A stretch of DNA of 64,000 bases from a virus: positions 1 through 64,000 of the IMG/VR virus record IMGVR_UViG_3300044618_001634, one strand, 5' to 3'. Position numbers and translations under genes: made by a program. The notes under the pieces were generated by a model that saw only the letters and a program-made list of their open reading frames with translations, made no database searches and was not told the DNA's origin. Shown one piece after another: positions 5,377 to 63,552 of this stretch; position 1 is the stretch's first letter; the number at the start of each line of letters is the position of its first letter.

Positions 5377-6180
5377 ATGAAATATACTGTAGTTACCACT
5401 TTTAATGCCAAGGGTTACGAAACATACGGGCGCCGAATGATCAATACGTTTTTGTCCAATTGGCCCACCAATGTTACCCTTATTGTTTACGCAGAAGGAT
5501 GTGCTGTTACTGAATCTGCCGCTAATCTCATTGTGCGTGATCTTGAACAGGTCACAGAAATGGTTGAATTTAAAAATCGCTGGCGGAATGTACCCAAAGC
5601 CAACGGAGATGTTAGTCACGATCCTGTACGCAGTCGTCGCAAGGATGCTGGCAAAGGGTTTAAGTGGGACGCTGTGCGTTTTGCCCATAAAGTTTATAGT
5701 ATATTTGATTGTGCAAAAAAATCCAATAGTGATTGGTTATTATGGATGGATGCTGACATGGTGTGCCATAGTCCTATCACGGTTGAAAAGTTAGATGAAC
5801 TATGTCGAGAAGATTTATGCTTCTTGGGTAGAGAGGGCAAGTACAGCGAATGCGGACTATATGCTATGAATTTACGTAGTGAGCGTGTAAAAGAGTTCTT
5901 GAAAAAATTTCAAACATACTACGATTATGCCGAAGAAGGTATTTTTACACTAGATGAATGGCATGATAGTTATGTGTTTGATGCTGTTCGTAAACAAGTT
6001 GGTATGAATATTGTAAACTGGAGTGCTGGGTTAATTAGAGGCGAAGGACATCCACTAATCAACTGTGAGTGGGGGAATTATCTAGACCATCTAAAAGGTG
6101 ATCGGAAAGCCATTGGACGTAGTAAGTTGAAAGATTTACTGGCACATCCTAAAGAAGGATACTGGTCGGCTAGTAATTAA
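5377..6180 (+). CDS. Glycosyltransferase, DxD (DADM) type
   Basis: 267 residues beginning MKYTVVTTFNAKGYE. The motif WLLWMDADMVCHSPIT (about 124-139) is the DxD site of a GT-A enzyme. The order of elements (V-T-[ST]-F start, KAYS/KVYSI before the DxD, E-[TC]-G-[IL]-[FY] after it) is shared with the minus-strand genes at 6170 and 8135, so these are paralogs. It is one of the few plus-strand genes in the island, and its 3' end overlaps the convergent gene by 11 bases. The sugar and acceptor are unknown. Confidence 0.75.
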   Translation: MKYTVVTTFNAKGYETYGRRMINTFLSNWPTNVTLIVYAEGCAVTESAANLIVRDLEQVTEMVEFKNRWRNVPKANGDVSHDPVRSRRKDAGKGFKWDAVRFAHKVYSIFDCAKKSNSDWLLWMDADMVCHSPITVEKLDELCREDLCFLGREGKYSECGLYAMNLRSERVKEFLKKFQTYYDYAEEGIFTLDEWHDSYVFDAVRKQVGMNIVNWSAGLIRGEGHPLINCEWGNYLDHLKGDRKAIGRSKLKDLLAHPKEGYWSASN

Positions 6181-6868
6181 AATTATCTTTATTGCCTTTA
6201 CTTTTATAATGATTTAAGTAAGGACCTAAGATAGTATGTCGTAACGGTGTCTTGTATTTTTTCTTAAAATCAGCACACAAATCTCTCACGTGAGGTTTGA
6301 ATTCATTGGCTACGGCGCCAAACACTTCTCCGTCATAAAATCTTCGAAGGTTTTCAGTAATGTGCTCGTCGTAATATTGTCTATATCGTTGTGCAAATGC
6401 TTTAAATTCTGGGTGGGTACGATTTACAACAAATATACCTGTTTCGGCACTGATCCAGATGCGGTTATCCTTCTCGTGATATACTTCCATGTACGTGGCA
6501 AGAACATTGTCAGGGCATAACAATTCTAACATGCCCATTGAAATATCAGCAGTGGTTAATACATCTGCATCAAGCCAGATAACTCTATCTGCTGTGCTAT
6601 GTTCCATAGCATGTATAACGCTATATGCTTTCTTGGCAAAAGTCTTTACACGATCCTTGACCGGACTTAGTTGGAATTTAAAATAACTATCCCCTAGTTC
6701 TGTAAATTCAATTTGTTTAATTCTTGCTTGCTCCGGTAATCGAAACTCTTCTACATAACAAGTAAAAACAAGTTCAGACGGCCAATGTTTCAACCATGTT
6801 TCAACACATGCATGCCCTATTTTATCATAGTATGCTTGGTCAAAACTTGTAATTACTTCTATATTCAC
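6170..6868 (-). CDS. Glycosyltransferase, DxD (DADV) type
   Basis: 232 residues from a GTG at 6868 whose GTGA overlaps the stop of the upstream gene by 4 bases; the family-typical start VNIEVITSFDQAYYDKIG supports it. DxD site RVIWLDADVLTTADIS, then ETGIFVVNRTHPEFKAF and a NHYKSKGNK tail that resembles the H-F-K-G-K of the paralog at 8135. It is translationally coupled to the FkbM-like gene at 6865, so sugar transfer and methyl transfer may act on the same glycan. That coupling is inference from gene order. Confidence 0.72.
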   Translation of the reverse strand: MNIEVITSFDQAYYDKIGHACVETWLKHWPSELVFTCYVEEFRLPEQARIKQIEFTELGDSYFKFQLSPVKDRVKTFAKKAYSVIHAMEHSTADRVIWLDADVLTTADISMGMLELLCPDNVLATYMEVYHEKDNRIWISAETGIFVVNRTHPEFKAFAQRYRQYYDEHITENLRRFYDGEVFGAVANEFKPHVRDLCADFKKKYKTPLRHTILGPYLNHYKSKGNKDNFNY

Positions 6869-7482
6869 CGAAGACCTACGCCCATGCGTTCTTTCCATTG
6901 ATCAAATGTTATTTCAGGAAAGTCAATGTCGTTCTTAACAAACCATGTTTCAAATTGATAATCGGGTTGTTTACAATAGACATTACTAACTGCAACTTTG
7001 TACCCTTTGCTAGTCAGGTACTCACGTACAATAGGATCGTGATCGGGTATGTGTTGCATGCCAGGATTACCGTTGTCGTGTTCAAAAGTGATACAATCAA
7101 ATTCGATACCTTGTTCTATTACCCGTTGCAACGCTAACAAGGTGTTAGTTGGTGGTTCAATATCGCAACTTAAATAACTAATGTGTTTTGTTAGACCTTG
7201 TTTTTCAAGTTGAGCAACGTAATCAAAGGTAATAGCATTTTCCCAACAAATAGGATTGGTTCTTTCCGGACAGTCTGCCCAGGCCTTTTGCCATTTTTTG
7301 TTTAATTCAAGACTGAATCCCTTCCATCCTTTGTTTACTTCCAGAATGTAGGTATTGTTTTTATGTGCTGGCTTGTAAGCACCAATTTCTATATAGGTAG
7401 CATTATCGCCACCGATACTATATGCAAACCAATCCTGATAGGCTTGTCCACGAGTTTTTACATCTAAAGTTGGGAAGTTCAT
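6865..7482 (-). CDS. FkbM-like methyltransferase
   Basis: 205 residues. The N-terminal stretch with ATYIEIGAYKPAHKNNT, then NKGWKGFSLEL, matches the SAM-binding first and second strands of FkbM methyltransferases (EIGA..P..[NS]NT..LE..GWKG...E). LSCDIEPP corresponds to the acidic motif after strand 4. It is a clear paralog of the plus-strand gene at 8944. FkbM enzymes usually O-methylate sugars or small molecules. It overlaps both neighbours by 4 bases, so it belongs to a tight operon with transferases. Confidence 0.75.
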   Translation of the reverse strand: MNFPTLDVKTRGQAYQDWFAYSIGGDNATYIEIGAYKPAHKNNTYILEVNKGWKGFSLELNKKWQKAWADCPERTNPICWENAITFDYVAQLEKQGLTKHISYLSCDIEPPTNTLLALQRVIEQGIEFDCITFEHDNGNPGMQHIPDHDPIVREYLTSKGYKVAVSNVYCKQPDYQFETWFVKNDIDFPEITFDQWKERMGVGLR

Positions 7483-8138
7483 TGTGGTATTAAATCCTTT
7501 TGACGTTTACCACTATAGTGATAAAAGTAATCTAGTAAATCAGTATCTTCAAATCCTTGAGGTGATTTTTTTACACTCTTACTAAGATTGCGATGTGGTA
7601 GTTCTTTGACCGCATACCACAGGACATCGTTGTCCCATGGCCGATGTAGAGTATCTACTATTCCATTGTACCATGCTTCTTCGTAGACGTTAGTCCACGA
7701 TTCAAACAATGGGTGTTGTGTGTCTATAATAACAAACCCCGACTCGGCTTGTTTTAAGTTTCCACAAATAATTGTGGCTACTTGCCCTTCCTCAGGCATG
7801 AATCTTGATAGATTGGGTTTACTGTTTACCTTAACATCGCTGTCTAACCAAATTACATAACGTGTTTTTAAATTACGAATTGCCCACAGGAAACATTTAC
7901 CTTTGCGCCAGAACTTACCCTTTTTGCCGCCGCCTATTGAAAAGTGAGGATCATTAGGATCAGGATATGCTGGTGCGGCATCTATTACTTCTACTCCAGG
8001 ATAGGTAAATCCTGGCATGTTTTCGGCCATGACAATTTTAGGACCGTCTAGTAATTCCCACCCGGGCAAATTATATTTTGCCACACTGTCAAAATACGAT
8101 TGGCTGAAACTTGTAACCCAAGTTATATCATATGTCAT
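7479..8138 (-). CDS. Glycosyltransferase-like protein, DSD motif
   Basis: 219 residues, start MTYDITWVTSFSQSYFDSV. The site RYVIWLDSDVKVNSKP is a DxD-type metal site, followed by ESGFVIIDTQHPLFESW, which is the same E-[ST]-G-[FI] block seen in the other transferases here. The insert HFSIGGGKKGKFWRKGK is Gly- and Lys-rich and unlike its paralogs. It overlaps the gene upstream by an ATGA. The product is probably a GT-A transferase; the acceptor is not known. Confidence 0.65.
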   Translation of the reverse strand: MTYDITWVTSFSQSYFDSVAKYNLPGWELLDGPKIVMAENMPGFTYPGVEVIDAAPAYPDPNDPHFSIGGGKKGKFWRKGKCFLWAIRNLKTRYVIWLDSDVKVNSKPNLSRFMPEEGQVATIICGNLKQAESGFVIIDTQHPLFESWTNVYEEAWYNGIVDTLHRPWDNDVLWYAVKELPHRNLSKSVKKSPQGFEDTDLLDYFYHYSGKRQKDLIPQ

Positions 8139-8884
8139 GCAAGCACCTGACTAACATAATCTTTGATAGCAAACTGTTTGTATAACTCCTCAGCTTGACG
8201 TTTAATTTTACCTTTGAAATGCCCTACGTCATCGTTGACCATGCTACCGCGTATAGGAGTATTACCTTTTTGACGTAGATTCATTTCTGTAAATGTAATT
8301 CCTAATTTTTCACAATCTTTAACCACATGTCCGTGAACATTACTATCATAGAATCGACCCATGCCTTCCATACGATCGTTATCATAGTAATCTCTATAGA
8401 TACGAGCAAAGTCTTTGCGACCAGGATGTTTTAGATCAAATATAAAAAATCCACTTTCGACACAAAACTCTCCGCTGTCGTGTGTTACTCCAAGATGTGC
8501 CGATAAATTGTTGTTTAGTATTTTTCTAAAAAATGCTTCGTCAAGTGGACGTTTAATAAAAGCATCGGCATCTAACCAAAGCATAGTGTCGGCAGTGCCA
8601 TGTTCTGTGCCTTCTAAAACTGTATAACCTTTTTTAGCAAAACTAATAACTTTTTGCATGATCTTACCTTGCCATCGGTCTTCAAATTGTTTAAATCCGT
8701 TGTCGAGGCTGTACAGATCGACCAAGTTGATTCGAGGATTCAACTTGGGCCACTTATCATAGTCCTCTGTAGTAACAGTAATTTGTGTATCTGCTGGGAG
8801 AAACTTTAATGCACTAGCCAAGCTGTATTTGCCAATATCATTAAAATAATCAATGCTTTGTGATGTGTAAACGTGAATTGTCAT
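8135..8884 (-). CDS. Glycosyltransferase, DxD (DADA) type
   Basis: 249 residues, first gene of the minus-strand run 8884 to 6170. It has FAKKGYTVLEGTEHGTADT, then MLWLDADAFIKRP (DxD), VESGFFIFDLKHPGRKDF and the C-terminal VGHFKGKIKR. All of these align with the genes at 5377 and 6170. It is driven by a perfect TATAAATA late promoter (8911-8918) with AAAGG before the ATG. As the promoter-proximal gene it should be the best expressed of this set. Confidence 0.75.
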   Translation of the reverse strand: MTIHVYTSQSIDYFNDIGKYSLASALKFLPADTQITVTTEDYDKWPKLNPRINLVDLYSLDNGFKQFEDRWQGKIMQKVISFAKKGYTVLEGTEHGTADTMLWLDADAFIKRPLDEAFFRKILNNNLSAHLGVTHDSGEFCVESGFFIFDLKHPGRKDFARIYRDYYDNDRMEGMGRFYDSNVHGHVVKDCEKLGITFTEMNLRQKGNTPIRGSMVNDDVGHFKGKIKRQAEELYKQFAIKDYVSQVLA

Positions 8885-8909
8885 TTATAACCTTTTTAAT
8901 TAACTACCC

Positions 8910-8929
8910 ATATTTATAGTTATAAATAT
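8910..8929. promoter_or_regulatory. Back-to-back divergent late promoters in a palindrome
   Basis: Minus-strand TATAAATA (8911-8918) and plus-strand TATAAATA (8921-8928) face away from each other, separated by 2 bases. The arms ATATTTATA and TATAAATAT form a perfect inverted repeat. One serves the transferase at 8884, the other the methyltransferase at 8944. Both genes have Shine-Dalgarno-like sequences (AAAGG; AAGGAA). Confidence 0.8.
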
Positions 8930-8943
8930 CTGGCAAGGAAATC

Positions 8944-9564
8944 ATGACATTCTATTTTAACCAACTTAATACTGTGCTATTCAATAAATCTGCCGAAGCC
9001 AAGGTAGACCGTTTTGCTTACGGCTTATCTGGGGCCAATGGTACCTATATTGAAATAGGTGCCAGTAAACCAGTACAACGTAGCAACACCGTAGCATTAG
9101 AGCGTCAAGGATGGAAAGGGTTTGGGATCGAATTTGACCCTCGACTTCAACCACTATGGCCCGACTGTAGAACCAATCATATATATTGGGCTGATGCTAC
9201 TAAATTTGATTACATAGCAGCGGCCAAAGAACAAGGACTGCCTGATCGTATTAACTTTTTGCAAGTGGATATTGAGCCACCAGAAAATACGTTTGCCGCG
9301 CTTAAATTGGCTGTAGAATCAGGATTGACTTTTGATTTTATTGCGTTTGAACATGACGTGTATTGTCAAGATGTAGACTATAATGTAATTGCCACAGATT
9401 ACTTGTTAACTAAAGGTTACAAAGTTGCAGTTTACAATGTTTGCTCACAGCGTAAGCGTAACCCAGGAGTATGGAGCCACATAGAAACGTGGTATGTTAA
9501 AAATGACATACCCTTTGAAACTATGGAATTCTTTGATTGGAAAAAGAAATACAACGTACAATGA
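8944..9564 (+). CDS. FkbM-like methyltransferase, paralog of the 6865 gene
   Basis: 206 residues. The key blocks GTYIEIGASKPVQRSNT, RQGWKGFGIEFDP, NFLQVDIEPPENTF and FEHD repeat those of the minus-strand gene at 6865, including the end HIETWYVKNDIPFE. This shows a duplication with inversion, or separate capture from one family. The gene begins a three-gene plus-strand operon (methyltransferase, epimerase, dehydrogenase) with ATGA overlaps. That fits synthesis and decoration of an unusual sugar. Confidence 0.75.
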   Translation: MTFYFNQLNTVLFNKSAEAKVDRFAYGLSGANGTYIEIGASKPVQRSNTVALERQGWKGFGIEFDPRLQPLWPDCRTNHIYWADATKFDYIAAAKEQGLPDRINFLQVDIEPPENTFAALKLAVESGLTFDFIAFEHDVYCQDVDYNVIATDYLLTKGYKVAVYNVCSQRKRNPGVWSHIETWYVKNDIPFETMEFFDWKKKYNVQ

Positions 9565-10442
9565 AAAAAATATTAGTTACAGGTAGTAATGGATTTATTG
9601 GGCAACACCTGTGTCCGGCGCTGGATCAGTTAGGGCATAGTGTATATGCTGTTGATCGAACACTAGGCGGAGATTTATGCGATAAAGCATTTGTGGATGG
9701 ATTGCCGGATGTAGATATTGTGGTACATCTTGCCGCCCATAACGGTACAAAACATTTTTATAATCGGCCATTTGATGTTGTTCGAGACGGTGTGTTGCCA
9801 ACACAATATCTGTTAGAACGTTATGCTGGCAAAGTTAGTAGATTTGTGTTTACTGGAACTTGTGAAAGTTATGCCGGCGCTGTGGATTTGTTTAATTATC
9901 CAGTTCCCACAGATGAAAAGGTTCCCTTGGTCATTGGTGACGTAACTAACCCTCGCTGGAGTTACGGAGGCAGTAAGATTGTAAATGAAATCCAGGTTGT
10001 TGCTGCCAAAGAACAATTTGGTCAACGCTATTCAATTATACGATATCACAATGTATATGGGCCAGGCCAACAGGATCACTTTATTCCTGAATTTTATCAG
10101 CGGGCACTCACTGGTGATCTTACACTGTATGGCTGGGAAAATACTCGTAGCTTTATGTACATCAGTGATGCTATTGTTGCTACTATGCGTGTAATTCTGG
10201 AAGAATCGTTTACAAATGAAATTGTAAACATTGGCATTGATAACGAGATCAGTATTAAAGATTTAGCAGGAAAAATTCTAACAGTTGCTGGCATTGATGG
10301 AGAGTTGATATTAAAAGATGCTCCAGAAGGTTCAGTAAAACGTCGGTGTGCCGACGTATCAAAGTTTAATCGACTTACCTGGTTTGTGCCAAAAGTCGAG
10401 TTAGATGAAGGCATTAGATTAACATTAGAGAGTTTAAAATGA
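9561..10442 (+). CDS. NAD-dependent sugar epimerase/dehydratase
   Basis: 293 residues of the extended SDR family. The NAD-binding G8-x2-G11-x2-G14 is in ILVTGSNGFIGQHL; the DLC block, VVHLAAH, the T-G-T segment and the catalytic Y135-x3-K139 (SYGGSK) are all present. HNVYGPGQQDHFIPEF is the typical substrate-binding strand of UDP- or GDP-sugar epimerases and dehydratases. The start is the ATG at 9561, in an ATGA overlap with the methyltransferase. It probably converts a nucleotide sugar that the neighbouring transferases use. The precise reaction (4-epimerase or 4,6-dehydratase) cannot be fixed by eye. Confidence 0.82.
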   Translation: MKKILVTGSNGFIGQHLCPALDQLGHSVYAVDRTLGGDLCDKAFVDGLPDVDIVVHLAAHNGTKHFYNRPFDVVRDGVLPTQYLLERYAGKVSRFVFTGTCESYAGAVDLFNYPVPTDEKVPLVIGDVTNPRWSYGGSKIVNEIQVVAAKEQFGQRYSIIRYHNVYGPGQQDHFIPEFYQRALTGDLTLYGWENTRSFMYISDAIVATMRVILEESFTNEIVNIGIDNEISIKDLAGKILTVAGIDGELILKDAPEGSVKRRCADVSKFNRLTWFVPKVELDEGIRLTLESLK

Positions 10443-11233
10443 AAATAGGTGTAATTGGTTGGGGTGTTGTTGGAAGTGCATGCGGCGAAGGCTTTAAAAT
10501 GCTCGGACACGATGTTAAGATTCATGATTCTAAATTTAATACACTGATTAACGAAGTGCTCGATACCGAACTGGTATTTGTTTGTGTGCCAACGCCGCCT
10601 GGTCCTAACGGAGAGTGCGATCTTAGTATTGTGCATCAAACTATTCAGCACCTTATTGCCAATAATTATCAAGGTGTTATTGCGCTTAAATCAACCAGCG
10701 TACCAGGAACAACACAAAGTATTATTGATCAATACCCAGATCTTGACATTTGCTTTGTTCCAGAATTTTTACGTGAGCGTACTGCATTAGAGGATTTTGT
10801 TCGCAATCATGATTTGTTAGCAGTAGGTTGCCACACCGATCGTGCATGGCATCGTGTATGTGAAGCACACGACTGGTTGCCAAAAAATAAGGTACGCATG
10901 ACTCCAACTGAAGCTGAGATTCTTAAGTATTACAGTAATACATTTAATGCTGTGCGTATTGTATTTGCTAATGTCATGTATGAAATTTGTGAAAAGTTAG
11001 ACAGCGATTACGAAACTATTCTAAATACTTTCTTGTTGCGCAAAACTACAAGCCCAGATTATTTAAGTTGTGGTCCAGACATGCGCGGATACGGTGGCAT
11101 GTGTTTGCCCAAAGATACTAAGGCTATGGCTGACTTATGTAAAAGATTGGACTTACCGTTTGAATTATTTGATACTGTAGATCATGATAACAGTCAAGTC
11201 AAGCGTACAGTATTTCCTGGTATGCGTTTTTAA
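10439..11233 (+). CDS. Short UDP-glucose/GDP-mannose dehydrogenase-family protein
   Basis: 264 residues. NAD site G4-V-I-G7-W-G9-x2-G12, then VFVCVPTPPGPNG, the KSTSVPGTT strand, FVPEFLRE, the helix with K163 and N167 (EILKYYSNTFNA), and the catalytic Cys222 in GYGGMCLPKD. These are the canonical oxidising-site elements that turn a UDP-hexose into a uronic acid. Full-length family members have about 390-450 residues; this one stops soon after the catalytic Cys and lacks the C-terminal nucleotide-sugar-binding domain. It may work with a partner, or be a reduced enzyme. It overlaps the epimerase by ATGA and the convergent gene by 4 bases. Confidence 0.8.
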   Translation: MKIGVIGWGVVGSACGEGFKMLGHDVKIHDSKFNTLINEVLDTELVFVCVPTPPGPNGECDLSIVHQTIQHLIANNYQGVIALKSTSVPGTTQSIIDQYPDLDICFVPEFLRERTALEDFVRNHDLLAVGCHTDRAWHRVCEAHDWLPKNKVRMTPTEAEILKYYSNTFNAVRIVFANVMYEICEKLDSDYETILNTFLLRKTTSPDYLSCGPDMRGYGGMCLPKDTKAMADLCKRLDLPFELFDTVDHDNSQVKRTVFPGMRF

Positions 11234-12162
11234 ATAAACTCTCGCATGTGGCGCCAGCATGCACCCGATTGCAGTTCATTAAAATTCCAGTGGCTCATAG
11301 CCAGCCGTTCAACCCACTTTTGCCTATCTGGTAACAGTGGGTTTTCAATTTGTGTCAAATCAGTGTTGGCGATTTCAGCACACTGGCTTCGTGCTGGATC
11401 TGTAATAAAAACTGGCCACCCTTCGATTGCGGCACCTACTACTGGACTTGAATTGTGATTAACAACTGCCCAGCAATGTTTAAGGTCTTTGTTTAATGGT
11501 GGATTATCGATACTTATTTCAATCGATCCTAAACCTCTTTGATTACAAAGGTGTATAATTTCATTACAGTAACGGGGGCTTTGACGATCGCCCGGATGAG
11601 GACGTAATCGTATAGGTCTTTGTGTATGTTGTCTAAGTTTAGCAATAGTAGTTACCGCCCAATCAACTACACTGTATCCTCCCATCGACCATCCTCCGTT
11701 GCGTTGTAAACATAACAAAATATGATTTCCGGTGGGTCTATAATCTTTAAGGTGGATGCCCAGATCTTTACTAATTTGTTGCCACCTTGATGGTGTTGGT
11801 GTAGTATCACAATAGATACCAGTGTTTGGAAACACACCATTAAAACTATATCTAAGATAGTGTTGAGGATTTCCAGGAGTGGCATATAGAAATAAATTAC
11901 TATCAACCGCTACTACACGTCGGTTAGTTCGAATTTGTTCTTGTATTATTTGATTTCGCAAACGCAAATGAGGAGCTTCAGCAACATCTGCAATCCATCC
12001 TTGTATCACTGCTACGTCTGTAGAACGATATTGGTGATCTTCAACATCAATGACCTGTTCACCGAGTAATCTAGCACCCTCAGCAAAAAATTTCAGCAGA
12101 TTAACTTTTTCTGGATTCTTAGCGTTAGGAACTGTGCGATGATATACTGCCACTGATGTCAT
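11230..12162 (-). CDS. Capsule/KDO-type glycosyltransferase paralog 2
   Basis: 310 residues. The C-terminal half carries RLRPHPGD, then AVVNHNSSPVVGAAIEGWPV and IENPLLPDRQKWVERLAMSHW, matching the paralogs at 4519, 12159 and 13156. The N-terminal half includes VAVIQGWIADVAEAPHLRLR, a domain seen also in paralog 3. It resembles KpsC/KpsS-like transferases that build capsule linkers. It is the last gene of the long minus-strand run from uvsX, linked to its neighbour by ATGA. Confidence 0.65.
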   Translation of the reverse strand: MTSVAVYHRTVPNAKNPEKVNLLKFFAEGARLLGEQVIDVEDHQYRSTDVAVIQGWIADVAEAPHLRLRNQIIQEQIRTNRRVVAVDSNLFLYATPGNPQHYLRYSFNGVFPNTGIYCDTTPTPSRWQQISKDLGIHLKDYRPTGNHILLCLQRNGGWSMGGYSVVDWAVTTIAKLRQHTQRPIRLRPHPGDRQSPRYCNEIIHLCNQRGLGSIEISIDNPPLNKDLKHCWAVVNHNSSPVVGAAIEGWPVFITDPARSQCAEIANTDLTQIENPLLPDRQKWVERLAMSHWNFNELQSGACWRHMREFI

Positions 12163-22989: not shown

Positions 22990-24552
22990 TTAGTAACGGC
23001 TACTGATAAATGGCATAGGAGGTTCCAATACTTCGCCATGATCACGTATTTGATTGTCTATTCCTGAGTCAAATGTTTGTAGTAAAACCATCATACGAAC
23101 AGCTAGTAGTGCGCTCATCACAAGATCGTCGGTTTCGCCTACTTTGCCAGCGTAGCTGGTGCCATGTGCCACAAATGTTTTTAATTCGCTTACCAACGAA
23201 CTGCTGCGTATTTTCATTTTGCCAGTTTCGATTAGAATTTTTAGTTTGTTGCAGGCACCAAGTTTTGATTTATTTGTTGTGTTAAACCCTTTGCGATATC
23301 TGCGACTGCCACCACCGCCGGGTTCACTTAGAAAATAACCTTCAATGTTTTCTTCGCCATACTCTGCAATACTAATCAAAGCAGCCTCACCAATGGTGTT
23401 GTTTTCTACACTAAAATAAATGTTTTTGGGATCTTGCACTGTTTCGTTTAGGTGTTTGCAGATATCACTAAGAATTCTAATCTGTTCCGGAATAGTGGTT
23501 TTATTGTGTCGCCATTCGGCTATTTGTTCTGTGGTATTAGCCTCAAACACTTGTATAGCCGCAGGGTCACCGCCGGTGCCCAAACTAGGATCCAATGCCA
23601 CTACATATATTCGATCCTTACGAGGACGTTGATACCAGCGTACTTGACCAATTTTGTACATGGGCTCATGTCCTTGTAGATCGAGCAATTTAGCAGGAGC
23701 AATAAGAGTTTCGTCGTTAATAATAAATTCACAACCCATTTCACGGCGGAAACGATCTTCGCCTAGCTGTGCTTGTTGTTCCGCGGCCCATTTCTCATCA
23801 CGGTCTGGATGTTCATTCCAATAACTACGATAGGCTCTAAATCCGTTAATTCCTAATTCAGTAGGATTGCCGTAGGCATCTTCGCACCGGTTGGCGCCCT
23901 TCCATAATAACGCAAATTGATCCTCGTCACTGTTTGGTGTTGACGTAATAATTGCCTTACCACCAGTGGCCAAGGTTGGTGATATGGAAGTCCAGAATTC
24001 TTTTGCAATACCAGGTCGAACAAATGCAAACTCATCGGCGTATAGCAAGGATATACTCATACCACGACCGGTATTTTCTGTTGTGGTGGTCGAAACTATG
24101 CGGCTGCCGTTTTCAAAATCTAGGTTGCCTTTGTTGTAGCTGGTGCAACCTGCTCGGATATGATCTGGGCATAGTTCATAGGCATAACGAATACGTTGCA
24201 TGATCTCCTGTGAGCCAGTGTATTTGTGTGCGGCAATCAAGATGGTAGAATCTGGACGAAACATAGCATACCACAGCAAGTATCCAGCGGCACTGGTACT
24301 CTTACCTGTTTGTCGAGGCATCATGCTGATGCTAAATCTGTAGTTGTGATAGGTATCTATCAAGCGTTTCTGATAGTCAAATGGGTAATACAACATCTTG
24401 CCACGAGTAGGATGTTGTATGTGGAAAAAGTTGCTCATGAAATATTCTGGACCTGTAACAGGGTCCGCACAGGCCATGAATTCTCGGAGTTGTTCGTCAG
24501 TAAACGCAGTGCGTTTGTAAGGAGTTTTGACTAGTGCTGTTTCTTGTGCCAT
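22990..24552 (-). CDS. gp17: Terminase large subunit (gp17)
   Basis: 520 residues. ATPase domain: Walker A MPRQTGKS (78-85), Walker B SLLYADE (168-174) and the coupling motif TSTP near 204. Nuclease domain: D321 in VVALDPSLGTGGDP, an acidic VENN segment, and DD in GETDDLVMSALLA. These make up the headful-packaging motor of T4-like phages. It is shorter than T4 gp17 (610), which has longer terminal extensions. Gene 16 is not adjacent, lying about 6 kb upstream. Confidence 0.95.
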   Translation of the reverse strand: MAQETALVKTPYKRTAFTDEQLREFMACADPVTGPEYFMSNFFHIQHPTRGKMLYYPFDYQKRLIDTYHNYRFSISMMPRQTGKSTSAAGYLLWYAMFRPDSTILIAAHKYTGSQEIMQRIRYAYELCPDHIRAGCTSYNKGNLDFENGSRIVSTTTTENTGRGMSISLLYADEFAFVRPGIAKEFWTSISPTLATGGKAIITSTPNSDEDQFALLWKGANRCEDAYGNPTELGINGFRAYRSYWNEHPDRDEKWAAEQQAQLGEDRFRREMGCEFIINDETLIAPAKLLDLQGHEPMYKIGQVRWYQRPRKDRIYVVALDPSLGTGGDPAAIQVFEANTTEQIAEWRHNKTTIPEQIRILSDICKHLNETVQDPKNIYFSVENNTIGEAALISIAEYGEENIEGYFLSEPGGGGSRRYRKGFNTTNKSKLGACNKLKILIETGKMKIRSSSLVSELKTFVAHGTSYAGKVGETDDLVMSALLAVRMMVLLQTFDSGIDNQIRDHGEVLEPPMPFISSRY

Positions 24553-24588: not shown

Positions 24589-25029
24589 TTATTGGCACCA
24601 AGACTGTTTGGCATCGCCGTAGTATTCACGTGCAAAGCCGTTGCGGATCAGTTCGGCTCTTAAACTAACACCGTCCAGGATCATGTCGCCCAAGACACGG
24701 CCGCCAAACTTGTCCCAACCGTATAATATTACTTGATGCCGTTTGGTTGACTTTACAACGTTTTTGGTAAACTCACTGGCGGCTTGGCCACGAGTATCTT
24801 CGCTGGGGCATTGAGCACGATGTCCTTTTTCAGGAGTATCTACTCCAAATATTCTCACTGCCAGTTCAGGTTTGAGTGGTTGTGGCAGGAACGGTGCGGC
24901 AATTACAATGGTATCGCCGTCGCTGACTCGGATGATCTGTGCGTCATAGGTGGCAGAATTTTTGGGCATCTTGCCTTGTGCCACAACAAGTGCTGGCACT
25001 ATCAATAATAGTGCTAGTAATTTTTTCAC
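24589..25029 (-). CDS. Secreted thermonuclease-like (SNase) nuclease
   Basis: 146 residues from GTG at 25029, chosen because AAGAAGGAC lies just upstream and the product then begins with a signal peptide (VKKLLALLLIVPALVVAQG). The SNase core follows: RVSDGDTIVI, VRIFGVDTPEKG (catalytic Arg and Asp), ASEFTKNVV, and YGWDKFGGRVLGDM (the D-x-x-G-R motif with second catalytic Arg). The end with REYYGDAKQSWC is also usual. It probably digests nucleic acid in the periplasm or outside the cell. Placement between gp17 and a fibre gene is typical of an accessory (moron-like) gene. Confidence 0.85.
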   Translation of the reverse strand: MKKLLALLLIVPALVVAQGKMPKNSATYDAQIIRVSDGDTIVIAAPFLPQPLKPELAVRIFGVDTPEKGHRAQCPSEDTRGQAASEFTKNVVKSTKRHQVILYGWDKFGGRVLGDMILDGVSLRAELIRNGFAREYYGDAKQSWCQ

Positions 25030-25042
25030 AATTAGTCCTTCT

Positions 25043-26746
25043 TTAATTTGTAAGTTCTTCCCAACCCAGTTTATACAACAGGTCAGCATTGTTGGCAGTG
25101 TAGGCCACAGCCAAGGTCAGGGTAATGGGTGTGCCGGTAACATCTCGTTTGAGCTGTAGGCGTCGCTTGAGGTCTTCACCTATGGCCACAGTGTCGCGGC
25201 TGCTGGTCAGACCAGCATAGACCACCGTGCCATCTGTAATAGTATTGCTGTGTACAGCTGTCTGAACCACAGAATTTGTCACATTGCTGAATGACGTGGT
25301 GAATGTGGCGCCTTCAATCAGTTGGAACTGCCCATATCGCACATCTATCAACAATAGGTCAACTTGTGCTGGCAAGACCACTGCGTCTGGATAGGCTGGG
25401 TTTAATCTGATGCTGGCCAAAGCAGTAAGTGTGTTGCCTGTGGCAATTCTAGTGGCCACAGCTCCGTTGCTGATATAATTTATTGTGGTAGCTGGATTGT
25501 ATCCGCCTTCTGAAATCACTGTGCTACAGATCTGCTTCATAGTAGTGGCACCCGAGGTAGCACCAGTGTTGGTTATTTCGTAGCGAGGATTTAAGGTAGC
25601 CGTGGTCATGTACACACGGGTGTTGCCGGGTTGATTGGCATGTTGGAAGGTGTGGCACACAATAAACGCACCGTTGATGATAAATCCGGCTCGCACATTG
25701 CCCACACCTAACCACTCTATATCAGACCACAAGATCTGTGTAAGGGTTGGATCAAGTACAATGCCCGATGCTCCGGCGCCATTAAGGGGATCGCCATTCC
25801 AGCTACTTTGAGCGATGCGTTCTTCAACTATGGAGCCTGTAGCAGATGATCTGATCACCAAGTACAAGGTAGTGCCGTCGGCTTCAAAATACACACCATT
25901 TTCGGTGGTAAAATATCCCACTCGCTGGCGACAGTTGGCCCGGAGTGTGCCCATGGCAAAAGTGTTCATGATCAGCAGACTCTTGCCGGGCTGATAGGTT
26001 TGTGTGGTAAAACTCTGATTGATCACGCTGGAAGCGTTGGCTGTGGTCACAGCAAGATTGAATGAACTTTCAGCTGGCACATAGGTTATGGTACCTCCAG
26101 TGGCAGTGACGTTGCTGAACTGTCTACCATCAATGTAGCGATTTTGACTGTCAAACAGGGTGTAGGGTTGACTTACACGTAGGCGGCCAAACGCATCTAG
26201 GTTTGTTCCACCAATGGTTGTGGCAACATTGCCACCAGTGATTGTGGCATTTACGTTGCCGTCTACGGTAAGGCTTCCGCCACCGTCTACTACTGTGACA
26301 TTGCCTGTAATACCTGCCAAGTTGCCGGTAAGGCCCACGTTGCCCGACGTGATGGCTACGTTGACATTGCCGACTACTCCTACATTGCCAGTTATAGGAT
26401 TAACTGTGACATTGCCTGTAATACCTGCCAAGTTGCCCGCGATGCCCACATTGCCTGAAACTGTGACATTACCTCCGGTTACTGTGACATTGGTATTGCC
26501 AATAGGCATATAAGGCACATTAAGTATGCCAGAAGTTCCTATTTCGTCAAGATGAACGTGAACTGGGTCTTCGGCACTACTGTTAACGGTTACAGTTCCT
26601 GGAATGTTAACGTTGCCCTCGATAACAATGTTTCCTGCGAAGCCTGTTCGCACATACACATTGCCTGTGGTTTCGTCAAGTGCCAGAGCCTGCGTGATGT
26701 TACGCAGGTACCACGGTGCTACTTGTGAAGGATCTGGGATGGCCAT
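25043..26746 (-). CDS. Tail-fibre or virion surface protein with GNV repeats
   Basis: 567 residues. Residues about 40-185 are a low-complexity beta region of alternating GNV/TGN units (for example GNLAGITGNVTV twice), which likely forms a repetitive beta-prism shaft. The rest is a larger globular domain (QPYTLFDSQNRYIDGRQFS and onward) that is like capsid- or fibre-associated proteins of marine phages. At DNA level the shaft has a 35-nt exact repeat. It lies in the packaging/head cluster, so decoration of the head is also possible. Confidence 0.65.
   Translation of the reverse strand: MAIPDPSQVAPWYLRNITQALALDETTGNVYVRTGFAGNIVIEGNVNIPGTVTVNSSAEDPVHVHLDEIGTSGILNVPYMPIGNTNVTVTGGNVTVSGNVGIAGNLAGITGNVTVNPITGNVGVVGNVNVAITSGNVGLTGNLAGITGNVTVVDGGGSLTVDGNVNATITGGNVATTIGGTNLDAFGRLRVSQPYTLFDSQNRYIDGRQFSNVTATGGTITYVPAESSFNLAVTTANASSVINQSFTTQTYQPGKSLLIMNTFAMGTLRANCRQRVGYFTTENGVYFEADGTTLYLVIRSSATGSIVEERIAQSSWNGDPLNGAGASGIVLDPTLTQILWSDIEWLGVGNVRAGFIINGAFIVCHTFQHANQPGNTRVYMTTATLNPRYEITNTGATSGATTMKQICSTVISEGGYNPATTINYISNGAVATRIATGNTLTALASIRLNPAYPDAVVLPAQVDLLLIDVRYGQFQLIEGATFTTSFSNVTNSVVQTAVHSNTITDGTVVYAGLTSSRDTVAIGEDLKRRLQLKRDVTGTPITLTLAVAYTANNADLLYKLGWEELTN
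26292..26326. repeat. 35-nt direct repeat, copy A
   Basis: Identical to 26403-26437, 111 bases apart, both within the GNV shaft of the fibre gene at 25043. It encodes the repeated AGITGNVTV unit and could allow slippage or recombination that changes shaft length. Confidence 0.85.
26403..26437. repeat. 35-nt direct repeat, copy B
   Basis: Second exact copy of the repeat at 26292-26326. Confidence 0.85.
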
Positions 26747-27138
26747 TATCTTGGATATCCTTTAAATGCCTTCACAGGGCTGTCTGTGTCTACAAACTTG
26801 GGTTCTCGACTATCGGCTGTGCTTACTAATTCTTTGCCGCCTGGAGTTTTGGTCATTTGTAATGCTTGGTCAATTATTTGTTCTATTCCACCATTCATGC
26901 CTACCACAACACCGTGCTCACCAAACGCTGTTTCAGCTGTCCATTCTGGTTTGAATGGATCTATCGAGTGATTGTCTGCGCCAGCATTGCTTCTGGCTCG
27001 AGCCATGGCCACACCAAATCTATAGTTGTTGTAAGGATCACTGGCACTGAGTCCTGGAATCACATAAGTGTAACGCATGGGTTCGGCCAACTCAGCCGGC
27101 AACTCTCGTTGCTCAGTGATAAACTCTCGAGCTCTCAT
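26746..27138 (-). CDS. Putative internal head protein with capsid-targeting-like peptide (1)
   Basis: 130 residues from the ATG at 27138. It begins MRAREFITE, a near match to the T4 capsid-targeting sequence MKTYQEFIAE, with a gp21-protease-type site I-T-E. It ends SPVKAFKGYPR, the same tail as the gene at 27425. The body (FGVAMARARSNAGADN, MNGGIEQIIDQALQMT) suggests a small folded domain of unknown function. The start overlaps the upstream gene by 4 bases. Packaging into the head is inferred from the N terminus and neighbours. Confidence 0.6.
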   Translation of the reverse strand: MRAREFITEQRELPAELAEPMRYTYVIPGLSASDPYNNYRFGVAMARARSNAGADNHSIDPFKPEWTAETAFGEHGVVVGMNGGIEQIIDQALQMTKTPGGKELVSTADSREPKFVDTDSPVKAFKGYPR

Positions 27139-27428
27139 TCGCAATTCCAACGTCGACGTGCAGCACAAATTGCCTTGTCAGGAGTTTTGCTACAATCAAT
27201 ATTGTGCATTTTCTTTTGACCAGCTGATCTGGAGCAATAGCTCTTGCGACGCTTACTGTCCTTAGAACCTTTTTTGAGTTTACTTGGCTTGGTGGTCACA
27301 GCAGTTTTTAATTTACTGCCTGGATTCTCACGTCGATAAGCCTTGACTGCTTTTTTACTCATGCCGGCTGTGCGATCTTTTTTGTTGACCTTTTGCCAAT
27401 CTTCTACAATAAATTCTGCGGCTCTCAT
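27135..27428 (-). CDS. Putative internal head protein with capsid-targeting-like peptide (2)
   Basis: 97 residues, very basic. It begins MRAAEFIVE (I-V-E cleavage-type site), then a Lys/Arg-rich body (KKAVKAYRRENPGSKLK, KLKKGSKDSKRRKSY) and a Cys-containing end (CSKTPDKAICAARRRWNCE). High positive charge fits a DNA-associated internal protein like the T4 internal proteins. Four-base overlaps on both sides place it in one operon with the two related genes. Confidence 0.6.
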   Translation of the reverse strand: MRAAEFIVEDWQKVNKKDRTAGMSKKAVKAYRRENPGSKLKTAVTTKPSKLKKGSKDSKRRKSYCSRSAGQKKMHNIDCSKTPDKAICAARRRWNCE

Positions 27429-27799
27429 CTTGGGTATCCCTTAAATGCCTTTACTGGACTAGTTTTATTAGTTGATTCAGTTTCTTGACTTTCGTTATCA
27501 CCATGATTTAAATCGTGATGTTCACTACCGGTGGCTTTTAACGCTTGTTTTAACATTTTTGCTTCGGCATCGGTGTAAGGGTGTGCGGTGTTAAATTTTC
27601 CAGACCACGATTCGGTGTCTAGATTTAACGGCGCATCAGTACCGTCAGCGCAAGCAGCAGCCATCATAACACGATTTAATTCATATATGCGATCAAAACC
27701 TTGAGGGTCTCGAAAGGTAGAAAGACCACGAGTGGACTGTTGTCTACGATGACCAATTTTGCCCATGCGTTTCTCAATGAGAAACTCTGCCGCTCGCAC
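27425..27799 (-). CDS. Putative internal head protein with capsid-targeting-like peptide (3)
   Basis: 124 residues from a GTG at 27799. It begins MRAAEFLIE (L-I-E cleavage-type site) and ends SPVKAFKGYPR, sharing both ends with the gene at 26746. The middle differs (FDRIYELNRVMMAAACADG, PYTDAEAKMLKQALKATG). The shared ends and different middles point to modular cargo built on common sorting ends. Which step uses the C-terminal motif is unknown. Confidence 0.6.
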   Translation of the reverse strand: MRAAEFLIEKRMGKIGHRRQQSTRGLSTFRDPQGFDRIYELNRVMMAAACADGTDAPLNLDTESWSGKFNTAHPYTDAEAKMLKQALKATGSEHHDLNHGDNESQETESTNKTSPVKAFKGYPR

Positions 27800-27801
27800 G
27801 A

Positions 27802-28113
27802 TCAGCTTCCTGTGACGCCGGCTGTTGCTGAACTTGCTGTGCCTAACTCTGCGGCAGTGAATGTGCCAGTGAGAGTAAGTTTATTACCAGCACCTACATA
27901 AATTTGTACAGTAGAATTGGCAACAACACTAACAGCGTTACTCCAAATATTGCCAGCTGGTACAGAGGTGTAGGTTACACCATTACCATATGGAGTGGTT
28001 AACCCTACTGCATACACTTGGTAGGTAACTGCATTGTCTAAAGCAACAATTTCGGCCTTATCGGTGTACCAAGTTATATTGCCTGCCGATGAAACTACAT
28101 TAGCCTGACTCAT
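27802..28113 (-). CDS. Small beta-rich virion-like protein
   Basis: 103 residues, beginning MSQANVVSSAGNITWYTDKA. Ser/Thr/Val/Gly-rich with almost no charge, as in small decoration or fibre proteins (compare the gene at 49686). No family is recognised. It lies between the head-core-like gene at 28119 and the capsid-targeted set, so it may be a head decoration protein. Confidence 0.5.
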   Translation of the reverse strand: MSQANVVSSAGNITWYTDKAEIVALDNAVTYQVYAVGLTTPYGNGVTYTSVPAGNIWSNAVSVVANSTVQIYVGAGNKLTLTGTFTAAELGTASSATAGVTGS

Positions 28114-28118
28114 TTTTA

Positions 28119-30188
28119 TTAACCTTTATAATTCTGCCAAGTCTTAAACAAACTACGTTCAAGTTCAACATTTTCTTCCATACTTACTTGGCGACGCAAT
28201 TGACTTGCAATCACCGGAATAGTTGTTTGACCAGTCGACTTAGGCTTGTTAAGGCCGCCGCTGTACTGTAGTGCATCGTCACTGGTTTCTGTATTAGTTG
28301 GCCAGTCTGGCTTGTTTTCATCAACCATTTTGGCGTCGCAACCGCACTCTGCCGAACCACATGTTGGGCAAGTATCCTGCGCACCACCTTCTAATCCTGC
28401 CATTTTGAGTAACTGTGCTAATATGTCTGCATCGTCGCCGTCGGCAGTAACTGTAATACTCTTGCGTGGTTCACCTTCTTCACCAGCAGACATATTAGCA
28501 GTGATACTCATGCCTTCGGCAATCATGTTTTCAACTTTTTTATCAAGATTTTCATAAATGCCGCCACCAAAGTTGTATCCACCCTTGTTGGATTCTTTTA
28601 CTTTTTCTTCTTTTTTATCTTTTTTGTCATCGTACTCGATGTCTTTGGCAACTTTCTTACCAGCCTTTTCAGCACGTTGATCTTCTTTTTCAGTAGACTC
28701 TTCATCTACATGAGCAGGCAATCCTTTGTGTTTGGTCTTGGCAAAGTCTTCAGCATCTTTTTTGCCCATTGACTTGGCTACTTTACCAACTTCCTTGCTG
28801 GCTGGCTTTTCACCTTTTTGTGCGGCATGAACCATGCCCATGAATTTTTGTTGTGCCTTGCTTTTTGCTTTTTCAGCAATAGGCTCTTCTTCGGCACGCT
28901 CTGCATGCTGTGACAACATGTAATCACGGGCTGTGTCAATGTACTCTTTGGCCAATGTAATTTTTTTCTGTACCCACTCTGGCAAGTTTTCTTCGTCTTT
29001 GAGTATGCGATGCAATTCTTTGGCTGCATTCATAATAGTGTGCATCTGCTCTTTAGCCATGTCGCCTTCACGATCATACTCGCCATGATCAACACCTTCG
29101 CTGCTCATATTGCTTGCTCGTGTCATCATAACACCGTCGGTGTCAAGATCTTCTTCGGTCTTTTCTTTCTTCACACGCTTGCCATTGACCATTTTATATT
29201 TCCAACTTCCTTTGGTCACAGTCTCTTGATCTTTTGGTTTTGCAGATTTTGGACGGCCTTTTTTCTTGGGCTCGTCGCTTTTAGCTTCGTCGTCGGTGTC
29301 AATTTCTGTGTCAACTGCTTTACGAGTATAACGCTTGCTGTAGCCAGTGTCTTGTACGTCATAACGACTGTGTGACTCAGCATCTTTTTTTGCTTGTTGT
29401 TGTTTCATAAAGTCAGCGTCAAATGCTGTGCCTTTGCTACGTGGCTCTTTCTTTTTGCCAATTGCACCTTTGATTGCTTCGGCTGCAACATCGCCTAACA
29501 TTTCGTCAACTTCTTTTTTAGCGCCAGCAATCTTGTCAGCAAATGTAATCTTGTCTGTGGGAGGAGCTAACTTAGCAAATGATTTTTGCTTTGGGGTCAT
29601 TGCTGTCTCAAAGCCAACAATGTCGGCTTCCTCAATACTACTTGTATCTGTAAATTCTTTGTTGCCTACTTTAAACTTACCACCCTTTGGTGTACTAGCC
29701 AAGGCGCCAGTAAATGCGTTACCTTCGTCGGTCATTCCTTGACTTTCGTCATACTTGTCATACCGGTTGCGAATGTTACTCATAGTCTTGTCGCTGGCAT
29801 GCTCACGTCCGGCTTTTTGCAAGGCCTTCATGCCCTCATCACCATATTTCTTTTTACCAATAGCTGCTTGGAATGCACTTTCATCCATTTCACTTTCTTT
29901 TGGATGACGCAACTTGTTCAACACAGCACCGGCCACACGCTCACCAGCGTCCTTAGAACCATAACGCTCAGCAGCACCTTTGGCAATCTTGCCAAAGTTT
30001 TTGCCTGGCTGACCTAGGTCTTTGCCAGCACGGCCAGCTTTGGCACTGTAACCGGCTTCGGCTACATCTAATGACTCTGCCAGCTTGCTCTTAGGAGCAG
30101 TAGCTTTAGCATCTTCGCTAATTTGTTTAGCGTCTTGTTTAGCAGCCAGTTTGGCCAATCTTGCATTTAGGTCGTAAAAAAAACTCAT
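28119..30188 (-). CDS. Large Lys/Glu-rich head-core-like protein with DUF3008-like segment
   Basis: 689 residues, highly charged and mostly disordered or helical. Starts MSFFYDLNARLAKLAAKQDA. The stretch QQKFMGMVHAAQKGEKPAS, followed by DFAKTKHKGLPAHV, matches the DUF3008 motif that also occurs in proteins of marine T4-like phages. A CPTCGSAECGCD segment near residue 620 could bind zinc. Many [LI]-x-E sites suggest processing by the gp21 prohead protease. This composition is like T4-like scaffold or core proteins, but its function is inferred from location beside gp16, gp4 and the capsid-targeted genes. The ATG follows GAGGATA. Confidence 0.6.
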   Translation of the reverse strand: MSFFYDLNARLAKLAAKQDAKQISEDAKATAPKSKLAESLDVAEAGYSAKAGRAGKDLGQPGKNFGKIAKGAAERYGSKDAGERVAGAVLNKLRHPKESEMDESAFQAAIGKKKYGDEGMKALQKAGREHASDKTMSNIRNRYDKYDESQGMTDEGNAFTGALASTPKGGKFKVGNKEFTDTSSIEEADIVGFETAMTPKQKSFAKLAPPTDKITFADKIAGAKKEVDEMLGDVAAEAIKGAIGKKKEPRSKGTAFDADFMKQQQAKKDAESHSRYDVQDTGYSKRYTRKAVDTEIDTDDEAKSDEPKKKGRPKSAKPKDQETVTKGSWKYKMVNGKRVKKEKTEEDLDTDGVMMTRASNMSSEGVDHGEYDREGDMAKEQMHTIMNAAKELHRILKDEENLPEWVQKKITLAKEYIDTARDYMLSQHAERAEEEPIAEKAKSKAQQKFMGMVHAAQKGEKPASKEVGKVAKSMGKKDAEDFAKTKHKGLPAHVDEESTEKEDQRAEKAGKKVAKDIEYDDKKDKKEEKVKESNKGGYNFGGGIYENLDKKVENMIAEGMSITANMSAGEEGEPRKSITVTADGDDADILAQLLKMAGLEGGAQDTCPTCGSAECGCDAKMVDENKPDWPTNTETSDDALQYSGGLNKPKSTGQTTIPVIASQLRRQVSMEENVELERSLFKTWQNYKG

Positions 30189-30193
30189 TTATA

Positions 30194-30802
30194 TTATCCT
30201 CTTGGGTTTGCGCCAGTGGCTGGCTTTGGTGGACGACTTACTTTAGTCATTGGACTTTTATTGCCCATTGGTAAATCATTTGTTGTTTTGGCAGGAGGTG
30301 TCTTACCACCGGCCACAGTGAAGTCACTGCGATATGTATTTTTCAACACCGCATGTTGATATGGATTGGCCGAATAGTCTTTACTCAGTGCCTTTTGTTC
30401 AGCATCTGGTGCAGGATAATCTGTGTCAGTCAACAAATCTTTGTTTTGATCTTCAACTTTTTCTTTTTCTTCTGCCATGCTATCTTCATACGGCACAGTT
30501 AACATACGAATACGATTTGGATCAAGTCCTAGAAGTTGAGCAAGTTGTTGAACTTGTGGCTCAATTGCTGGATAGCGGAATTCCACATCCATGTGAGTCA
30601 CTCGGTCGTTTTCAAATGCAGGAAAGTCTGCTGGTTTCAACTGCACAGGCGTAGTCTTAGGAGCAGAAATTTTAACAATGTCAAATTGTTTTAATTTTTC
30701 CTCTAACTCTTTTAAGAAGTATGCTGGTGCTTCACCTACAAATTTAATGCGATAATTGTAGGTTCGTTCGCTTTCTGTTAGATAATCTTTGAAATGTTTC
30801 AT
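30194..30802 (-). CDS. Putative capsid-targeted protein, MKHFKDYLTE start
   Basis: 202 residues. The N terminus MKHFKDYLTE resembles the T4 capsid-targeting peptide MKTYQEFIAE, with L-T-E as gp21-type cleavage site. The body begins with a beta-alpha-beta domain (YRIKFVGEAPAYFLKELEEK, VEFRYPAIEPQVQQLAQLLG) and ends in a Pro/Lys-rich tail. Aquatic T4-like phages have similar proteins of unknown function near gp4/gp16. A CATAAATA late promoter and AGGAAAA precede the ATG. Confidence 0.6.
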   Translation of the reverse strand: MKHFKDYLTESERTYNYRIKFVGEAPAYFLKELEEKLKQFDIVKISAPKTTPVQLKPADFPAFENDRVTHMDVEFRYPAIEPQVQQLAQLLGLDPNRIRMLTVPYEDSMAEEKEKVEDQNKDLLTDTDYPAPDAEQKALSKDYSANPYQHAVLKNTYRSDFTVAGGKTPPAKTTNDLPMGNKSPMTKVSRPPKPATGANPRG

Positions 30803-30819
30803 ATTATTTTCCTATATGA

Positions 30820-30827
30820 TATTTATG
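30820..30827 (-). promoter_or_regulatory. Late promoter CATAAATA
   Basis: About 17 nt before the ATG at 30802 with AGGAAAA in between; overlaps the stop codon of gp16. Confidence 0.65.
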
Positions 30828-31311
30828 CTTCTTTGTTCTTTTGGTCATTTGCGCCCTTGAGCATTTCCAAAAGATCATTACGACTCAGCACCTGGCCGTG
30901 TGCTGTTTGTGATGGTTCGTCGCCTTGTACATCACGGTCTAATTTGACTTTTTTCATTTGCAACTCAATCATCTTGAGTTTTTTATTAAGTTTGGCTGTT
31001 TTAGCTGTCAGCGCATGCCCTAACATGGCGCCTGCAACTGCAAAGATTTCACTAGCATATCTGCTGTCTACATTAAACCCAAGATCCATCAGATTATCAA
31101 ACGTCTCCTGCGCTTTACTAGCAATGTCGTCCATTTCCTGGTCGCTAGCATCTAATCCTTTAACTGCCGGAAGTGCCTGATCAATTTTATCAATGGTATC
31201 ATTGATGTCTACTATAGCCGACTGTGTTGCAGGTATTGTTGTAATTTCTGCAGGGTCGGATTGATCAACAGCTTTGGGTAAATCAAAAAGGTCTTCAAGT
31301 TTGCGAGTCAT
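30823..31311 (-). CDS. gp16: Terminase small subunit (gp16-like)
   Basis: 162 residues (T4 gp16 is 164). The central helix RYASEIFAVAGAMLGHALTA followed by a coiled coil (KTAKLNKKLKMIELQMKKVK) aligns with the T4 gp16 segment RHMEVFATLMGQM... and its coiled coil; the [RH]-x-x-E-[IV]-F-A pattern is the family hallmark. gp16 forms a ring that regulates gp17 ATPase and DNA cutting. The gene is apart from gp17, which is unusual. The late promoter GGTAAATA ends 4 nt before the ATG and there is no Shine-Dalgarno site. Confidence 0.72.
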   Translation of the reverse strand: MTRKLEDLFDLPKAVDQSDPAEITTIPATQSAIVDINDTIDKIDQALPAVKGLDASDQEMDDIASKAQETFDNLMDLGFNVDSRYASEIFAVAGAMLGHALTAKTAKLNKKLKMIELQMKKVKLDRDVQGDEPSQTAHGQVLSRNDLLEMLKGANDQKNKEA

Positions 31312-61182: not shown

Positions 61183-61368
61183 TTAATACGTATCGTGTTC
61201 AAATCCGCTTGGTACTTGTACTGTGGAACCGTCGATCAGCGTGACTTGATATTCAGTGCGATCTGCTGACAAGCACACACCGGCATAATCTCCTGGGTCG
61301 AGGCCGGCGTTCTTTAGAGTTTCTTTGTATGCGTGTTCCTGCTGTGCAGCGTATTGACGTGAGTTCAT
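61183..61368 (-). CDS. Small hypothetical protein, 61 residues
   Basis: Product begins MNSRQYAAQQEHAYKETLKN and ends VQVPSGFEHDTY. An N-terminal amphipathic helix followed by a short beta domain. Starts in a 4-base overlap with the homing endonuclease stop, so it is co-expressed. No family recognised. Confidence 0.5.
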   Translation of the reverse strand: MNSRQYAAQQEHAYKETLKNAGLDPGDYAGVCLSADRTEYQVTLIDGSTVQVPSGFEHDTY

Positions 61369-62171: not shown

Positions 62172-62176
62172 GCTTT

Positions 62177-62184
62177 TATTTATC
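62177..62184 (-). promoter_or_regulatory. Late promoter GATAAATA (leaderless type)
   Basis: Ends 5 nt before the homing endonuclease ATG at 62171. Confidence 0.68.
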
Positions 62185-62251
62185 ATAGTCCGTGGCATTA
62201 CTAAACATAATACACTCGAACTGACTCTTTTGTCAAATAATTTGGCCAACA

Positions 62252-62275
62252 AAAAAGCACACTGTAGTGTGCTTT
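62252..62275 (-). terminator. Terminator after gp23
   Basis: Stem AAGCACAC / GTGTGCTT (8 bp), 4-nt loop, followed by T-run on the minus strand. Confidence 0.9.
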
Positions 62276-62325
62276 CTTGCTCTTCCCATCCCAAAGGGTA
62301 GGATGATTTGGTAGTAATTCTCTGA

Positions 62326-63544: not shown

Positions 63545-63552
63545 TATTTACA
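63545..63552 (-). promoter_or_regulatory. Late promoter TGTAAATA for gp23
   Basis: About 22 nt before the gp23 ATG; the leader carries AAAGGAGAC. It overlaps the end of gp22. Confidence 0.65.

Follow-up and report, generated by a model that had tools for sequence, protein, structure and literature searches.

We analysed a 64.3-kb uncultured virus record (IMG/VR IMGVR_UViG_3300044618_001634), whose positions 1-64,000 constitute the window, the whole stretch of DNA considered here. It belongs to a giant T4-type water phage of the T4 superfamily; the isolate gp23 and terminase sequences closest to its own are those of the giant phages PA5oct, Phosso and Atu_ph07 and of a Vibrio phage. On the minus strand, a cassette bordered by a terminase small subunit-like gene (terS, 30823-31311; phrog_445, E 5.9e-5) and the terminase large subunit gene (terL, 22990-24552) is transcribed in the order 30194-30802, 28119-30188, 27802-28113, 27425-27799, 27135-27428, 26746-27138, 25043-26746 and 24589-25089. 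Four of these genes encode proteins with similar N-terminal peptides, hereafter tags: MKHFKDYLT-E (30773-30802) in the 202-residue product of 30194-30802, MRAAEFLI-E (27773-27799) in the 124-residue product of 27425-27799, MRAAEFIV-E (27402-27428) in the 97-residue product of 27135-27428 and MRAREFIT-E (27112-27138) in the 130-residue product of 26746-27138. The 27425 gene starts at a GTG preceded by AGGA, and the 26746 gene, which a mechanical listing of open reading frames begins at an upstream TTG, starts at the ATG at 27138 that overlaps the previous stop. As 27425, 27135, 26746 and 25043 are chained through the overlaps ATGA, ATGA and TAATG, they probably form one translationally coupled operon.

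These N termini are present as the original prediction had described them, and so is the C terminus SPVKAFKGYPR that it had assigned to two genes: the paralogues 27425 and 26746 both end in this sequence followed by a stop codon (27425-27460 and 26746-26781, respectively). The codons of the three MRA-type tags differ synonymously, as do those of the two SPVKAFKGYPR ends, which indicates conservation at the level of the peptide and rules out a DNA-level repeat as the source of the shared ends. In an alignment of the MRA paralogues (26746-26820 and 27425-27490; alignment A1), an SxE near the C terminus is also fixed (S110, E112) along with the end SPVKxFKGYPR, and the two together are possibly a second processing or docking site.

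The bodies behind the tags had been described as a set not recognised by homology, which holds for only one half of it. The 26746 family, to which 27425 belongs and which comprises at least 181 homologues, has no Pfam or PHROG match, and no isolate homologue was found in 50,697 phage records. By contrast, 27135 matches DUF6321 (PF19846; 42.9 bits against a Pfam gathering cut-off of 28.5) and 30194 matches the virion structural protein family phrog_14802 (E 7.9e-6, residues 1-140), so body homology does partly recognise two of the four. The body that had been singled out as very basic is that of 27135, with a predicted mature isoelectric point of 10.5 and a net charge of about +21. Solved structures yielded no convincing relative for the 26746 or 30194 profiles. 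The fold predicted for 26746 (121 residues in its predicted mature form, after Glu9) is of moderate confidence (predicted local distance difference test, pLDDT, 82; predicted template modelling score 0.50) and has one viral structural match, itself uncharacterised. The 30194 model is of low overall confidence (pLDDT 65), its better part being a predicted ferredoxin-like core (residues about 14-103) with Z scores of up to 8.4 against ribosomal S6-like chains; as modelled, this arrangement is common and uninformative about function.

Comparison with shuffled and reversed sequences rules out a chance origin of the tags. First, a simple gene-calling procedure that missed some GTG starts gave 858 genes for two large relatives, of 320 and 344 kb, and 8 of these genes show a strict tag pattern, against an expectation of 0.04 when N-terminal residues are shuffled or 0.06 when columns are shuffled across genes; seven of the eight sit in the terS-terL cassette and the eighth is a DUF6321 gene. 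Second, the matching DNA pattern occurs 84 times in 35 tagged viral records, which had been selected for tags or as kin of tagged loci, and the backwards control gave no match. In addition, each of the 32 terL relatives for which 10 kb upstream is available has two to five tagged genes in the same cassette, and matches to the DNA pattern for MRAxEF.xE in a homology-free scan of viral contigs fall nearly always at plausible gene starts.

We then asked how well the tag is kept when relatives are collected through the body. A profile of the 26746 family from which the first ten residues had been removed, and whose seed members had been found via the tag, retrieved 181 homologues with an assignable start, and 173 of them keep the tag; recall of untagged relatives may be low because tagged proteins served as seeds for the body families. 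In four of the eight exceptions the Glu is shifted but an [IL]xE is retained (MRAREFVIQE, MRAREFVSAVLSE, MRASEFISAQLME and MKLRELFE), and most of the remainder look like wrongly assigned starts. Tag columns 1, 2, 3, 5, 6 and 9 each approach 4 bits, column 7 is occupied by I, V or L, and variation is seen at columns 4, 8 (P2) and 10 (P1'). Fixed positions combined with a free P2 and P1' are what characterises a recognition peptide with a terminal [IL]xE. Among 21 close relatives of 30194, M1, K2, F4, Y7 and E10 are invariant and L8 is kept in at least 90%.

This pattern resembles that of the T4 capsid-targeting sequence (CTS), as the original prediction had proposed by reference to MKTYQEFIAE of the T4 internal proteins. 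In T4 IPIII, residues 4 and 7 are needed for targeting and residues 8 and 10 for processing, and the gp21 protease cleaves at L/I-X-E (PMC9026906). Residues F4, Y7, L8 and E10 of 30194 coincide with these IPIII positions, whereas F6, I7 and E9 of the MRA tag correspond to IPIII 7, 8 and 10 and leave position 4 without a counterpart unless a gap is introduced. The tags agree with the T4-type format, about 10-19 residues at the N terminus with L/I-X-E as the last three, the MRA type with its nine residues being one shorter. As in IPI, IPII and IPIII, an aromatic residue stands ahead of the aliphatic P3, the bodies are diverse and share the tag alone, and the lineage of the window phage encodes gp21, gp22 and gp23 homologues: the large relative G001 has the gene order gp20 portal, gp67-like, gp68-like (both labels being based on gene position), gp21 protease, gp22 and gp23. 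PF03420 is present in 9 of the 35 tagged records, the others being mostly fragments. Unlike the T4 tags, the MRA tag has RA fixed at positions 2-3 and no aromatic at position 4, the window genes lie between terS and terL and include paralogues whose family conserves the C terminus, and the range of bodies that carry the tag is far wider.

Of the sequence arguments, the most direct comes from the capsid protein itself. In the window, gp23 (62326-63522, minus strand) has a predicted maturation site at L-R-E42 (63397-63405, minus strand), followed by NASSGSTTSGNIA, which aligns near the mature start of T4 gp23; a cut at a second [IL]xE, I-L-E34, is a possible alternative. In related phages, the sequence of several tiny proteins runs tag-E|NASVGATSSGSVATVA or tag-E|TASAGATTSGNIA and thereby reproduces the gp23 junction E|NASxGxTxSGxIA, with the tag Glu in register with that of gp23. 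These in-register copies argue that the tag Glu is P1 of the same protease. Tiny proteins in which a copy of this mature N-terminal gp23 arm (NASxGxTxSGxIATV) follows the tag Glu occur at L117 11476, L123 4779, L092 10619, L281, L293 7403, L252, L266, L102 and L120. A segment similar to the arm copy is present in the PA5oct virion protein 0203, and the virion-listed S-SCSM1_97 resembles the arm of the gp23 of S-SCSM1 itself.

Published virion proteomes mostly agree with targeting of the tagged proteins. They are those of relatives, because no particle of the window phage is known, and such lists can include contaminants and carry no information on cleavage. In PA5oct, the orthologue of 30194 (EST35_0202), homologous in sequence and in its terS-terL position, and the neighbouring 0203 are both flagged by electrospray ionisation tandem mass spectrometry. 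In the cyanophage S-CREM2 (PMC10665884), all five genes with CTS-like starts are among the virion proteins, compared to 52 of 219 genes overall (Fisher p = 6.5e-4). Four of these tags are convincing: those of a SAM hydrolase (MKDFDSFLEE), gp13 (MKDLHSFLTE), an APH-like kinase (MKRFDAFLTE) and a cytidylyltransferase (MKNFSSFLTE). The DUF6321 protein gp137 is also in the virion list of this phage. The virion NMNAT of S-SCSM1, selected for testing while its N terminus was still unread, begins with MKSFLQFLKE, a second tagged protein of this phage not being in the list, and one of three tagged proteins was detected in S-SZBM1, the cytidylyltransferase MRFRQFIIE. When the three cyanophages are pooled under a tighter motif, defined after the S-CREM2 test, six of nine tagged proteins are detected versus 127 of 719 genes overall (p 0.0014). 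S-SM1 virions contain the cytidylyltransferase cluster T4-GC190 (PMC3037559), and the P-SSM7 member of this cluster starts with MKKFSAFLTE. These cyanophage enzymes resemble the window proteins in their CTS-like starts and differ from them in their bodies, and the cyanophage and MRA motifs are not identical. Capsid targeting goes unmentioned in the S-CREM2 paper (PMC10665884), and in the literature examined "capsid targeting" and "cyanophage" occurred together only in one T4 review.

Several observations weigh against a targeting and cleavage role. The virion evidence comes from phages other than the window phage, and gp21 is absent from the window while gp22 is present only in part, as the C-terminal portion of a gp22-like scaffold gene that runs off the window end (63548-64000, minus strand); its gp21 would lie past the contig end. 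Moreover, the fifth S-CREM2 match, MKQIIIHE, is weak, the detection of gp137 is thin (4 peptides, 4.1% coverage) and its start lacks a CTS, three tagged cyanophage proteins went undetected in virions, and the authors of the S-CREM2 study allow for contamination (PMC10665884). Finally, the 30194 orthologues of PA5oct (MKSFRDYYDA) and Phosso (MKNFYEYLSS) have no [IL]xE, which means that some relatives do not require cleavage. On balance, the conservation pattern, the gp23 junction, the gp21 of relatives and mass spectrometry of homologous or analogously tagged virion proteins strongly support one part of the interpretation offered by the original prediction, a T4-like CTS with a gp21-type [IL]xE site, the interpretation as a whole being partly supported; the tags are very probably T4-type CTSs that target proteins to the prohead and are cleaved after the tag Glu by a gp21-type protease.

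The four genes would accordingly encode precursors of internal head proteins. Upon translation of the late operon, the 9-10-residue N-terminal peptide would dock each protein on a gp22-type scaffold core, and once the prohead is complete a gp21-type protease would cut after the last tag Glu, at [IL]xE. The freed body would stay among the packaged DNA and enter the host together with it; by analogy with T4, such ejection is probable. The tag would in this way serve as a portable address, fitted in this lineage to many unrelated bodies. The charge of the 27135 body makes for an even chance that it binds or neutralises packaged DNA. More tentatively, the rapid sequence diversification and copy-number variation of the 26746/27425 family might point to factors that, like T4 IPI, are injected to interact with the host or to counter its defences.

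The original prediction was confined to a set of four; all four do carry the tag, but the set is much larger and extends to enzymes elsewhere. In the loci examined, distinct MRA-tagged proteins numbered 291 and fell into 35 body clusters, with no similarity detected between clusters. Pfam matches among 74 representatives include GH19, GNAT, NUDIX, superoxide dismutase, an ADP-ribosyltransferase profile, M48 peptidase, ParB N-terminal, LysM with phage lysozyme, kinase, DUF6267 and DUF6321. A PADLOC search matched one tagged protein to a candidate defence model. Tagged genes can also form islands, several of them following one another in L109 and in L359 (in the latter at 5892-11374, with different bodies). 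A Tat-like DRRGFL leader follows the tag Glu in L263 3861-4493, L214 2992-3609 and L116 7035-8264, two of them GH19-like with the leader directly after the Glu, as if these proteins were packaged and injected and the host then exported them.

This breadth bears on the alternatives to targeting with ejection. The tagged proteins could reach the prohead core and remain there as scaffold or core components without ejection, like T4 gp67 or gp68, which for the set as a whole we regard as rather unlikely. In its favour, close relatives have 30194 next to the terminase, homologues of it occur in PA5oct, Phosso, Atu_ph07 and a Vibrio phage, and the PA5oct gp67-like gene begins with MKINDIITE. However, the MRA family varies in copy number, its bodies diverge fast, and many tagged bodies elsewhere are enzymes that are implausible as scaffold. 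Most likely, retention in the core is true of 30194 only, which is probably a conserved inner-head or core protein. It is very improbable that the conserved N terminus has no targeting role and is simply the opening helix of a common domain, or a translation-start region held in common. Conservation does extend beyond the tag in the 30194 family, and the paralogues lie in one operon with coupled starts, but the same residues recur on all 35 dissimilar body clusters, the codons differ between copies, and only positions implicated in targeting or protease recognition are fixed, the exceptions moving the Glu and keeping [IL]xE. Recent duplication of the MRA-type genes is likewise very improbable as the source of the similar N termini, for although 26746 and 27425 are paralogous and have both ends in common, the 27135 and 30194 bodies are unrelated, unrelated enzymes bear the tag, and the MRA family alignment has a mean column identity of 34% against invariant tag positions in members chosen by their tag. 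We also considered whether the tag is a trait of phages without T4-type heads, as 19 of 22 re-searched tagged records gave no match to the T4 portal, Terminase_6N or the UvsX of the window; the three of these that were read (G012, G043 and G038), which also have no gp21-type protease or gp22 scaffold gene, have proteins in common with G001 or G002 at ~60-90% identity, such as DNA polymerase or ribonucleotide reductase, and therefore look like pieces of the same lineage, and this candidate was rejected.

Address peptides on head cargo have several parallels. T4 Alt is a packaged ADP-ribosyltransferase that is processed at its N and C termini, and the tagged match to an ADP-ribosyltransferase profile resembles it as a putative head-packaged enzyme with an N-terminal propeptide, a likeness of profile type rather than sequence comparison; none of the four window genes is an Alt homologue. 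In phiKZ and SPN3US, internal head proteins destined for ejection are likewise cut after Glu by a gp21-related protease, but several propeptides exceed 100 residues and the phiKZ specificity is S/A-x-E (PMC5694885, PMC9026906). The N-terminal signal of P1 DarB suffices to bring a reporter into the capsid, but it is longer than 9 and at most 30 residues and there is no consensus among Dar proteins (PMC9024508). Against this background we favour, as the likelier case, a 9-10-residue cleavable address as a general head-cargo loading system of aquatic T4-superfamily phages, including uncultured giants. It would deliver dozens of protein families (among them GH19 glycosidases with Tat-like leaders, acetyltransferases, ADP-ribosyltransferases, NUDIX hydrolases, superoxide dismutase, SAM hydrolase, kinases, NMNAT and perhaps a Cas9-like nuclease) and make much of the injected effector set readable from genomes. 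The proteins that a phage carries into its host are usually learned only through particle purification. If the tags are indeed targeting sequences, a motif search anchored at gene starts can list the probable head cargo for many uncultured T4-type phages, account for the recurring metabolic enzymes in cyanophage virions, where contamination has been suspected, and yield candidate injected anti-defence proteins; such prediction is neatly illustrated by the four window genes.

Among the untagged neighbours, 28119-30188 (minus strand) encodes a 689-residue charged protein with a DUF3008 domain. Although it lacks an N-terminal tag, this product is probably a virion protein: S-SCSM1 has a DUF3008-like protein with a virion-protein annotation, and the PA5oct gene in the equivalent position is flagged by mass spectrometry. 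The virion-listed, DUF3008-like S-SCSM1_93 (MK867354.2 91626-91835; locus L335) has a tag-like C terminus, TFKEFLEYIE. S-CREM2 gp12 (OR473000.1 7704-10313; locus L327), a virion-detected Cas9-like nuclease, carries a CTS-like LRFASFMAE at residues 17-25. The cassette gene before terL, 24589-25089, encodes a small protein that has a hydrophobic leader and looks like a staphylococcal nuclease in its fold, and a homing endonuclease gene (61365-62384) adjoins gp23.

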